Source of the DNA: Flavobacterium sp.
GTDB lineage: Bacteria; Bacteroidota; Bacteroidia; Flavobacteriales; Flavobacteriaceae
DNA: 5,463 nt
Assembly: GCA_024709705.1 (NCBI GenBank)
Contig: JANJWE010000058.1
Span: forward strand, 1 to 5,463
Direction: 5' to 3'
Position 1 is the stretch's first letter, and every line of letters begins with the position of its first letter. A program made the translations under genes and the position numbers. The notes below the pieces were generated by a model, which saw nothing but the letters and a program-made list of their open reading frames with translations, had not been told where the DNA came from and ran no database searches. Below, piece by piece: positions 1,943-5,463 of this stretch.

Positions 1943-2173
1943 TCACGTTTCTTTTACCGAAATAATATGCACCGGACAAGCTTTTTGAGCCGCTTCACAA
2001 GCTTCTACAATCGTATGATTGGGCGACTTTAAAGTATGAAAACCTTTGGTATTTACGGATTTCAACAAAACTGATTTTCCGTCTTTTTTTGACATTTGAA
2101 ATTGTGCCGGAGCCATTTCTACACAATAATTGCATCCTATACATTTGTCGCGTTGCAAAGTTATGACTACCAT
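1943..2173 (-). CDS. Small mono-cluster [4Fe-4S] ferredoxin
   Basis: This is a 76-residue soluble protein. It starts with a beta strand (MVVITLQRDK) followed at once by the cluster motif CIGCNYC (Cys11, Cys14, Cys17). The fourth ligand is expected to be Cys66 in ACPVHII, giving the C-x2-C-x2-C ... C-P arrangement of single-cluster ferredoxins. Cys59, seven residues before Cys66, is extra and could form a disulfide with another cysteine or be free. Such proteins carry single electrons to cytoplasmic enzymes. Its ATG overlaps the stop codon of the U32 gene by one base (TAATG at 2175-2171), which implies co-expression and probably translational coupling, so the U32 Fe-S protein is the natural partner candidate. 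The stop is TGA at 1945-1943. The fold call is firm; the partner is inference. Confidence 0.88.
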   Translation of the reverse strand: MVVITLQRDKCIGCNYCVEMAPAQFQMSKKDGKSVLLKSVNTKGFHTLKSPNHTIVEACEAAQKACPVHIISVKET

Positions 2174-3414
2174 TATTGCTCCACAATTTTATATAATTTA
2201 TCCGAATTTCTCACTCTAAAAGGTAATTTCAGGGTGCAACTATCCCCTTTGGATGCTTTTTCTAAACGGTTATCGTTTACTAACATTTCATTGATTACGA
2301 GTTCCTGAACACCGGTAGTTGGTCCGGTTATCATGATTTTATCACCAATTTTGATGTCGTAAGCCTCAATTTTAAATTCGGCGATATTCGTTTTCGGAAA
2401 AAAGTGAACGCCTTTACCCACATATACTTTTTTCTGTGTTGCATTTGAGCCCGGATTGGCACTCCATTCACCTAATTTTTGTCCCAAATAATAACCCGAC
2501 CAGAACCCTCGGTTGTAAACGGTGCTTAAATCTTCCATCCATTGATCGATTTTTTCTTTCGTAAAAGTTCCGTCGTAATAGGAATCAATTGCATCCCGAT
2601 AGGTTTTGGTGACCATTGCTACATATTCCGGAGCACGCCCTCGCCCTTCTAATTTCAAAACTTTAATTCCCGAATCGATTACTTGATCCAGAAAATCCAG
2701 CGTACATAAATCTTTGGGAGACATCATGTATTCGTTATCAATTTCAATTTCAAATCCGGATTCTTGATCAATTACGGTATATTTTTTTCGGCAATTTTGT
2801 TTGCAAGCCCCTCTGTTGGCAGAGGAATTGTGTGAATGTAAGCTCAAATAACATTTTCCGGAAACAGCCATGCACAAAGCCCCGTGCCCAAAGATTTCGA
2901 TTTCAACTAAATTACCACTTGGACCTTTTATTTGTTCTTTTTCAATTTGTTCCGTGATTTTTTTCACTTGACGCAAACTCAATTCACGGGATAACACAAT
3001 AGTGTCAGCAAATAAACTGTAAAATTTGACGGTTTCTACATTTGTCACATTCAATTGAGTGGAAATATGTACTTCCATACCGATTGTTCTAGCCGAAGCA
3101 ATTACAGCTTGGTCTGAAGCAATCACAGCTGTAATTCCGGCTTCTTTGGCTTTGCTAACCAACGTTTTCACAACAGATAAATCGTGGTCGTAAACAATGG
3201 TATTCAGCGTTAAATAAGTTCTAACCTTTTTGGCATTGCACCGTTTTGCAATTTCGGGTAAATCTTCCAAAGTAAAATTGATGGTTGCCCGAGCTCGCAT
3301 ATTTAATTGTTCTACACCAAAATATACCGAATCGGCACCGTTATCTAATGCGGCTTGCAACGATTCAAAATTTCCGGCCGGAGCCATGAGTTCTATTTTT
3401 CCTGATGGAGTCAT
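2173..3414 (-). CDS. trhP: U32-family protein, TrhP-like tRNA uridine-34 hydroxylation protein
   Basis: This is a 413-residue cytoplasmic protein formerly called 'peptidase U32'. The N-terminal TIM-barrel-like part begins with the family hallmark ELMAPAGNFESL (residues 8-19). The U32 signature is complete at residues 173-191: EIFGHGALC, four residues, then G-K-C-Y-L-S. Cys181, Cys188, Cys204 (or Cys208) and Cys237 are candidate [4Fe-4S] ligands, matching the spacing idea known from UbiU/UbiV. Residues ~328-413 form a separate C-terminal domain with a GPTTG-QEL core. The length fits the short U32 class that includes E. coli YegQ (453 aa) and Bacillus YrrO (422 aa). Those proteins make 5-hydroxyuridine at the tRNA wobble position in a prephenate- and Fe-S-dependent way. 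The adjacent trhO gene supports this role over other U32 functions such as ubiquinone hydroxylation or 23S rRNA C2501 hydroxylation (RlhA is far longer). It starts 2 nt after the trhO stop (TAG-TC-ATG). The family is certain; the substrate is likely but inferred. Confidence 0.82.
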   Translation of the reverse strand: MTPSGKIELMAPAGNFESLQAALDNGADSVYFGVEQLNMRARATINFTLEDLPEIAKRCNAKKVRTYLTLNTIVYDHDLSVVKTLVSKAKEAGITAVIASDQAVIASARTIGMEVHISTQLNVTNVETVKFYSLFADTIVLSRELSLRQVKKITEQIEKEQIKGPSGNLVEIEIFGHGALCMAVSGKCYLSLHSHNSSANRGACKQNCRKKYTVIDQESGFEIEIDNEYMMSPKDLCTLDFLDQVIDSGIKVLKLEGRGRAPEYVAMVTKTYRDAIDSYYDGTFTKEKIDQWMEDLSTVYNRGFWSGYYLGQKLGEWSANPGSNATQKKVYVGKGVHFFPKTNIAEFKIEAYDIKIGDKIMITGPTTGVQELVINEMLVNDNRLEKASKGDSCTLKLPFRVRNSDKLYKIVEQ

Positions 3415-3416
3415 GA

Positions 3417-4784
3417 CTAACCAATGATTTTAAACAATTTATCCGATAATCGAATGCGAAACGGAACTGCGAAGGTTAATTTGTCCCCCGGTTTGGCAAC
3501 CGTTCCCTCTTGGCCATTGACAAACATTTTGTCTAAAATCAATTCTTGATTTCCGGTGGTTGGTCCGGAAATTAAAATTATATCTCCAGTGTTTACCTCT
3601 TGGTTTTCAATTAAAAACAAACCAACACTAGCTTTGGTATAATAATGTTCGGCTTTTCCAACTAATACTTTTTTGCGTTTGATGCGTTCGCGAATGGGTT
3701 TTGGTTTTTCAATATCATTTGCAACAGCCAATGATACATCGCTCAATTCACCGGAATGTTTGAATTTTAAAGCAGGCGATTTTCCTTTTTTGAAAATCAT
3801 GTTTCCTTTTTGAACGCCTTTTCTCAATTTGACTTGTTCGGCTAAAGGCAGATGAATGATTTCCTGACATTCGGAGGAACAGCAATTATCCATTTTTTCT
3901 TTGCATTCATCACATTGGATGAATAACAAATGACAACCGTCATTCACGCAATTGGTATGATTGTCACATGGTTTTCCGCATTGATGGCATTGCGAAATAA
4001 TATCGTTGGTGATGCGTTCGCCCAATCGATGGTCGAACACAAAGTTTTTGCCAATGAATTTACTTTCCAAACCTTCTTGCTCAATTTGACGGGCGTATTC
4101 AATGATTCCGCCTTCTAATTGATAGACGTTTTTGAAACCTTTATGCTTGAAATACGCACTCGCTTTTTCGCAACGAATTCCGCCTGTGCAATACATCAAC
4201 AAATTTTTTTCTTCTTTGAGGTCTTTTAATTGTTCTTCAATAATGGGAAGCGATTCTCTAAAGGTATCCACATCCGGAGTGATAGCTCCTTTAAAATGGC
4301 CTATTTCACTTTCGTAATGGTTTCTAAAATCAACTACAATGGTGTTTGGGTCTTCCAAAAGTTGATTGAATTCTTTTGCTTTTAAGTGAATTCCTTTGTT
4401 GGTAACATCAAAAGTGGAATCATCTAAGCCATCGGCTACAATTTTATGACGGACTTTTATAGTTAATTTTAAAAAGGAATGATCGTCTTGTTCGCGAGCA
4501 ATATTCAATCGAATGCCTCTCATGAAATCATACACTTCCAGCGTATCTTTGAATTGGTAAAAATAATCTGCCGGCAACGAAAGTTGGGCATTAATTCCTT
4601 CGTGAGCTACATAAATTCTTCCCAAGACATCCAAAGGATTCCAGACTAAGAATAAATCATCTCTAAATTTTTTTGGGTCTTCAATTTTGGCATAGGCATA
4701 AAAAGACAACGTGAGTCGTTGTTTGCCGGCTTGATCTATAAGCTCGGCTCTCTCTTCTGCCCTCATCGTGTTATACAGTTGCAT
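3417..4784 (-). CDS. trhO: Oxygen-dependent tRNA uridine-34 hydroxylase TrhO (rhodanese family) with an extra C-terminal domain
   Basis: This is a 455-residue protein, first gene of the operon. Domain order: an N-terminal acylphosphatase/ferredoxin-fold domain (~24-110, with AHEGINAQLS at 60-69); a rhodanese domain (~130-235) with VVDFRN at 150-155 and the active-site loop CTGGIRCEKA (Cys199 presumed catalytic, Cys205); then a cysteine cluster that probably binds metal (Cys266, 269, 273, 279, 284, 291, 294, 301, 302, 306), closely matching the same region of E. coli YceA. YceA/TrhO hydroxylates U34 of tRNAs to ho5U using O2, so it acts in the cytoplasm on wobble decoding. The common family core ends near residue 335, and E. 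coli TrhO is about 350 residues. Here a linker with a basic KPKPIRERIKRKK stretch leads to an additional domain (371-455) that matches the C-terminus of the neighbouring U32 protein. The ATG at 4784-4782 is the only start that keeps the conserved QLYNT...ERAELI beginning. No Shine-Dalgarno is present, as usual in this phylum. Confidence 0.9.
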   Translation of the reverse strand: MQLYNTMRAEERAELIDQAGKQRLTLSFYAYAKIEDPKKFRDDLFLVWNPLDVLGRIYVAHEGINAQLSLPADYFYQFKDTLEVYDFMRGIRLNIAREQDDHSFLKLTIKVRHKIVADGLDDSTFDVTNKGIHLKAKEFNQLLEDPNTIVVDFRNHYESEIGHFKGAITPDVDTFRESLPIIEEQLKDLKEEKNLLMYCTGGIRCEKASAYFKHKGFKNVYQLEGGIIEYARQIEQEGLESKFIGKNFVFDHRLGERITNDIISQCHQCGKPCDNHTNCVNDGCHLLFIQCDECKEKMDNCCSSECQEIIHLPLAEQVKLRKGVQKGNMIFKKGKSPALKFKHSGELSDVSLAVANDIEKPKPIRERIKRKKVLVGKAEHYYTKASVGLFLIENQEVNTGDIILISGPTTGNQELILDKMFVNGQEGTVAKPGDKLTFAVPFRIRLSDKLFKIIG

Positions 4785-5098: not shown

Positions 5099-5463
5099 CT
5101 AATTTCCAACTATTACACAACCCCCATTATCACATTCTACCGTTTGGGGTGGTAAAACAACTGCACAGTCTGAAACTGCATTCGTTTGAATGTTGTACTC
5201 TAGGTTTAATTGATTGTAGATTTCAATCATTGACTCTAATTCGTCTAAATCAATCGATGATGGAAAAGTTAAAAACTCTGTTGGCCCACCACACGGTTTC
5301 ACACCAAATGCTATAGTGTTGCAGTTTTCTGAGTTGTTGCATTCAAAACCGGCGATGTAATCCATAATCTCCTGTTTTTTCAAATTTAATTGTTCAAGGG
5401 TAATAGGTTCAGAATTATTGTCTTCACACTGAAAACTTTGAAGCAACACGGCCAATACAAATA
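5099..5463 (-). CDS. Putative cysteine-rich lipoprotein of unknown function, start beyond the window
   Basis: The frame is open to the right edge, where it reads FVLAVLLQSFQCEDNNSE. That is the end of a hydrophobic signal followed by a lipobox-like SFQC and an acidic start of the mature chain. This is typical of small Bacteroidota lipoproteins, so the true ATG is most likely a few codons outside the window; the TTG at 5455 is not needed as a start. The mature part is about 109 residues with six further cysteines, consistent with up to three disulfides in the periplasm or outer membrane. Its recognisable stretches are KKQEIMDYIAGFEC, AFGVKPCGGPTEF and AVSDCAVVLPPQ. I have an impression of similar small hypothetical lipoproteins with a 'KPCGGP' motif in Flavobacteria but know no function. 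The stop is TAG at 5101-5099, followed by a terminator; it appears to be the last gene of its transcript. Confidence 0.7.
   Translation of the reverse strand, partial: FVLAVLLQSFQCEDNNSEPITLEQLNLKKQEIMDYIAGFECNNSENCNTIAFGVKPCGGPTEFLTFPSSIDLDELESMIEIYNQLNLEYNIQTNAVSDCAVVLPPQTVECDNGGCVIVGN

Follow-up and report, generated by a model that had tools for sequence, protein, structure and literature searches.

The two tRNA hydroxylases of Escherichia coli K-12, the O2-dependent TrhO (YceA, UPF0176; 350 amino acids) and the prephenate-dependent TrhP (YegQ), are the described enzymes with which the genes considered here are best compared. According to extracts of PMC6599085, TrhP acts on all six tRNAs and prefers Leu3 and Pro3, TrhO acts mainly on the other four, and in gels E. 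coli TrhO binds tRNA-Ala1 and not tRNA-Leu3. E. coli TrhP consists of a U32 domain followed by Peptidase_U32_C, and the TrhO proteins of E. coli and Bacillus subtilis contain three domains and a CTGGIR loop. The 5,463 nucleotide Flavobacterium sp. contig JANJWE010000058.1 (the whole of which is called the window below) carries a trhO gene and, adjoining it, a gene for a TrhP-like U32 protein. The window TrhO has the same three domains and loop, but it is about 110 residues longer than the E. coli and B. subtilis proteins, which end before the linker (or, in E. coli, slightly beyond its start), and the additional part includes a barrel like that of U32_C. Our reading is that Flavobacterium TrhO ends in a domain of the U32 C-terminal type, predicted to form a small beta-barrel. 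An ancestor of the genus likely gained it in a single copying event from the 3' end of the adjoining trhP-like gene, and it likely serves as an extra grip on tRNA; taken as a whole, we give this reading somewhat better than an even chance of being right. The sharing itself is real, old and single in origin, its function is a matter of inference, and it adds a new architecture to a known enzyme without amounting to a new system.

The window trhO gene (positions 3417–4784, minus strand) encodes 455 amino acids with the Pfam domains UPF0176_N, Rhodanese and Rhodanese_C, and its product passes the NCBI equivalog model NF001133 (262.5 bits; cut-off 170). In alignment with E. coli TrhO, the active-site loop CTGGIR (residues 199–204, positions 4173–4190, minus strand; E. 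coli C200–R205) and the basic residues K110 and R112 (E. coli K112 and R114) are intact, and O2-dependent formation of 5-hydroxyuridine at tRNA position 34 (ho5U34) is predicted for this protein. Residues of the loop are essential in E. coli TrhO in the extracts of PMC6599085. The linker (residues 344–369, positions 3678–3755, minus strand), delimited by tail alignment and by the predicted local distance difference test (pLDDT), begins where the TrhO proteins of other genera stop (the tail alignment leaves out genomes G413 and G322, see below), so TrhO has been extended at its old C-terminus. Its mean length in 124 TrhO proteins is 24 amino acids (range 18–33), and AlphaFold2 pLDDT is below 50 at residues 321–369. 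The C-terminal U32_C-like barrel follows (residues 370–455, positions 3420–3677, minus strand).

The TrhP-like gene (positions 2173–3414, minus strand; 413 amino acids; PF01136 E 1.6e-69) ends in the likely donor type of this domain (residues 327–413, positions 2176–2436, minus strand). An earlier note, made from the sequence alone, had counted by hand an ungapped C-terminal likeness between the two proteins, and BLASTP returns it as their single significant match, TrhO 370–454 to U32 327–411, with 40/85 residues identical and 57/85 positive (85.5 bits, E 2e-22). By Smith-Waterman alignment the score is 210, against a mean of 26.3 (SD 5.1, maximum 56) for 1000 shuffles, and a profile-profile comparison of the TrhO and TrhP-like domains gives a probability of 100 and E 1.3e-49, with 29 positions at which conservation reaches at least 80% in each set. 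The two C-terminal domains are homologous. The remainders of the proteins are unrelated, as the note had also said (their N-terminal parts score 33, against a shuffle mean of 35.5 in 300 shuffles), and the DNA of the two domains is only 57.6% identical over 255 bases, and 40% at third codon positions, which bears out its view that no recent duplication took place and fits an old single event. At E 10 the genome of the window (82% complete) yields no third copy of the domain.

The Pfam match to the U32 C-terminal domain that the note expected did not appear; PF16325 finds neither window protein at E 10, and reaches one relative of the domain with E 0.031 and 14.9 bits, below its gathering threshold of 28.2, while E. 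coli TrhP passes. The link that Pfam did not supply came from fold comparison. The AlphaFold2 model is poor overall, but a stretch predicted with confidence agrees with the small beta-barrel suggested for the domain, and the extra domain of TrhO shares its fold with the solved C-terminal domain of the Geobacillus thermoleovorans U32 peptidase (4he5, 4he6; 19% identity), which belongs to a U32 protein, whereas the domain here is carried by a rhodanese-type enzyme. Further fold relatives, at 8–19% identity, are the C-terminal domain of IF2 and the barrels of the domain 2 type in EF-Tu, EF-Sec and eEF1A; TrhO has no GTPase. Those factors make contact with tRNA. When the profiles are compared with the lone E. 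coli TrhP tail, the match is weak (P 0.011 for the TrhP-like set and 0.0007 for the TrhO set, single comparisons). A PDB sequence search with the TrhP-like protein found nothing, and the fold matches listed for its model are taken up by its triosephosphate isomerase (TIM) barrel (U32 peptidase Mk0906, 5d88, among them) and so do not bear on the C-terminal domain. In the literature searched we found neither a function for the U32 C-terminal domain nor a description of its sharing with TrhO, of which the note too knew no account; an earlier description is possible.

The domain is not a universal part of TrhO: the E. coli protein has the three usual domains only and, as the note had it, ends before the extra domain, and most TrhO proteins of other genera lack the extra one. 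In a Bacteroidota sample of 296 genomes, 270 match the TrhO query, and among the 150 matches listed 24 reach residue 453–455 and the other 126 end at or before residue 362. Those 24 are the window, 17/17 other members of its genus and 6/6 genomes of another family of the same order (f2 below). A sample of the genus itself has TrhO matches in 148/149 genomes, 145 of which carry the domain. In the family sample (199 genomes, nearly one per genus; TrhO threshold E 1e-100), 177 genomes have TrhO and the domain occurs, among the matches listed, in three: the window, G021 of the same genus, and G475 of genus g176. Among named genomes, in the best 80 of 535 stretches encoding a relative, the domain follows the TrhO core in all 80, a U32 gene lies within 2.5 kb in 44, and the titles mostly name Flavobacterium or its higher groups; two metagenome bins among these 80 are labelled Rhizobium and Bifidobacterium and are probably misnamed.

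The three exceptions in the genus are a TrhO cut by a contig end (G322), a 343 amino acid TrhO (G431) and a fused frame (G413). The G431 protein (locus L036, 1146–2177) has no domain and stops at the would-be start of the linker, one base before the U32 start, and is a case of loss. The 776 amino acid G413 frame (L033, 1106–3436) joins a TrhO core to a whole TrhP-like protein with a single C-terminal domain; none of the best 120 of 5624 proteins covers more than 49% of it, and this single, unconfirmed fusion may be an assembly fault. We note that trhO and the U32 gene share a reading frame in G202 (L034), with just a stop codon and several bases between them, so that loss of the stop would fuse them (open frame 872).

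In a tree of TrhO cores, a branch with support of 100 has on one side 127 cores (124 with the domain, together with those of G322, G413 and G431) and on the other all 28 domain-less cores included. The trait requires two changes on this tree (G322 and G413 excluded), read as one gain and one loss, and the single TrhO clade rules out several independent gains. No root was inferred for this tree; which way the trait changed is judged from the lack of the domain in TrhO of other genera. A single gain fits the TrhO tree and likely took place in an ancestor of the genus.

The domain-bearing TrhO of the six f2 genomes (L013, L016, L018, L019, L043 and L044) is nested inside the window's genus with branch supports of 89–95, and the TrhP-like cores, present in 2/6 of these genomes, are not; trhO was probably transferred horizontally to f2.

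For the source of the domain, a rooted domain tree was built with 19 further TrhP sequences, four of which carry the root, with near-identical rows removed at 80% identity (as for the likelihood test below) and with seven long-branch rows and E. coli left out. The TrhO domain clade (46 rows, 100/99) is nested in the Flavobacterium TrhP domains (98/83; 46 TrhO and 7 TrhP rows), and forcing the family's TrhP domains together without TrhO costs 34 likelihood units (approximately unbiased test, p-AU 0.045). The donor was thus likely a TrhP-like domain, with moderate support from the tree. The gene pair is older than the capture, because other genera have adjoining genes with a domain-less TrhO: among 24 loci of other genera picked for closeness of the two genes, the U32 gene starts from -35 to +19 bases around the trhO stop in 16, all with TrhO lacking the domain, and the remaining loci have the reversed order (7) or a gap of 147 (1). 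By the simplest path, the 3' end of the downstream U32 gene would have been duplicated onto the upstream trhO.

The U32 gene is present in 73/149 genomes of the genus (E 1e-60), and the TrhO domain does not depend on it. It is kept in 71/73 genomes with the U32 gene and in 74/75 TrhO-bearing genomes without it, the 75th being the one at a contig end. The ratio of nonsynonymous to synonymous substitution rates (dN/dS) of the domain, over disjoint genome pairs, is 0.102 with the U32 gene at the locus (21 pairs) and 0.109 without it (10 pairs); values elsewhere are ~0.03 for the TrhO core, 0.12–0.19 for the linker and 0.04 for the TrhP-like domain (20 pairs). The TrhO domain is under purifying selection also where the U32 gene is absent, and it is in use, and not via the U32 protein. 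In G432 (L107) the U32 gene is present as two overlapping pieces in different frames, as by a frameshift, and the adjoining domain-bearing TrhO is intact.

We propose that the rhodanese part performs the chemistry as in other TrhO proteins, and that the barrel would add a tRNA contact through the flexible linker, with a gain in tRNA affinity or in the set of tRNAs. A role in tRNA contact is suggested by the fold relatives, by retention without the U32 gene and by the prediction that both host enzymes act on U34. The likeliest use would be better handling of tRNAs such as Leu3 and Pro3 by the O2-dependent enzyme, since E. coli TrhP favours both of these and E. coli TrhO does not shift tRNA-Leu3. 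We offer more tentatively, as possible and short of probable, the further suggestion that the barrel carries the tRNA selectivity of TrhP, that it enables Flavobacterium TrhO to act on U34 of the Leu and Pro tRNAs poorly served by the E. coli enzyme, and that substrate choice may be a portable module between two unrelated catalytic machines. Several observations weigh against the reading of a domain captured from TrhP as a tRNA grip. The domain has little net charge (+1.8), and the chain in the solved B. subtilis TrhO-tRNA-Ala complex (9j5o; 352 amino acids) is too short to include it, so tRNA binding does not require the domain. Of the two copies of the domain, the one on TrhO evolves the faster (0.10, against 0.04 for the one on TrhP). 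The tree used to find the donor has 92 columns, and it places 3/10 TrhP domains of domain-bearing genomes, those of the window itself and of two f2 genomes, outside the group (the U32 core of the window does cluster with its genus, support 93). Finally, the U32 gene is absent from 76/149 genomes of the genus and from 131/199 of the family, so TrhP loss is no higher in the genus and the capture did not visibly make TrhP dispensable; these loss rates give that idea no support.

The domain could instead be a protein-docking or self-association part that joins TrhO to its neighbour, to ferredoxin or to itself and makes no tRNA contact, which we consider rather unlikely. The adjoining of trhO and the U32 gene in many genomes, the presence of both proteins with a single domain in the G413 frame and the small charge of the domain would all suit such a role, but the domain persists with the same dN/dS in the genomes that lack the U32 gene, and no ferredoxin gene is seen in 56/56 fetched U32-less loci that have room for one; TrhO self-association through the domain is possible. 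That the domain is a structural relic of gene fusion with little functional effect is very unlikely: its loss in G431, the lack of a copy proper to the TrhO half of the G413 frame and its faster evolution than the TrhO core point that way, but 145/148 genus matches keep it at a dN/dS of 0.10, and the motifs shared with TrhP persist. Least credible of all is that repeated gene conversion or recent duplications keep the domains alike, so that their similarity says little on age, for although one subclade's TrhO domain is 58–65% identical to the window's TrhP-like domain (42–51% elsewhere), a 100/100 branch in the domain tree (87 TrhO and 49 TrhP rows, near-identical rows removed at 88% identity) has every TrhO copy on the same side and domain pairs from the same genome are no more alike than cross-genome pairs (0.489 vs 0.482, 69 genomes; in likeness to a genome's TrhO domain, the TrhP of that genome has a median rank of 20th of 68), which together contradict gene conversion.

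Along the minus strand, trhO is followed by the U32 gene, a gene for a 76 amino acid 4Fe-4S ferredoxin (positions 1943–2173, minus strand; Fer4_13 E 1.5e-11), ricT and gldH. The U32 start codon lies 2 bp past the trhO stop, and the ferredoxin start codon overlaps the U32 stop (TAATG). At the other end, positions 5099–5455 (minus strand) encode a 118 amino acid cysteine-bearing hypothetical protein, which matches nothing in Pfam or NCBIfam and may run off the contig end. The note had called the U32 protein TrhP; its predicted role stands, but the protein fails the NCBI TrhP equivalog NF011996 (197.4 bits, in two stretches, against a cut-off of 534) and is for that reason termed TrhP-like here. 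It resembles E. coli TrhP in its U32 core (PF01136), with the catalytic E173 and C181, C188, C204 and C208 intact in alignment, and in its collinear C-terminal domain, and differs in its equivalog score and in a tail that is not recognised as PF16325. The four-cysteine motif CX6CX15CX3C (residues 181–208, positions 2791–2874, minus strand), predicted to hold Fe-S ligands, is as described in extracts of PMC11574389. The U32 gene is present in 21/22 family genomes without TrhO and in 47/177 with it (Fisher p 2.5e-10, kinship ignored), and in other families of the class in 4/4 without and 4/33 with TrhO (p 0.001, kinship ignored); G021 and G581, matched only via U32 paralogs or the TrhO domain, were counted as lacking it. 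On recheck at E 0.001 the TrhO core was missing from 22/22 TrhO-less family genomes, the only matches being a U32-type C-terminal domain or lone rhodanese stretches. The ferredoxin gene directly follows the U32 gene in 96/98 fetched loci, the other two being cut off, and ferredoxin is likely the electron partner of the TrhP-like protein. Intact catalytic residues, gene neighbourhood and complementary occurrence with TrhO indicate that the U32 protein is likely the TrhP of these bacteria, with prephenate-dependent ho5U34 formation predicted.

The 2019 survey, in the extracts of PMC6599085, places TrhP orthologs mainly in proteobacteria; our survey of occurrence points to the U32 protein as likely filling the role of TrhP in Bacteroidota. 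In Flavobacterium an unrelated enzyme, predicted to act on the same nucleotide, has come to carry a U32 C-terminal domain and has retained it after loss of the donor-type gene. The domain may bear on how TrhO and TrhP choose their tRNAs.
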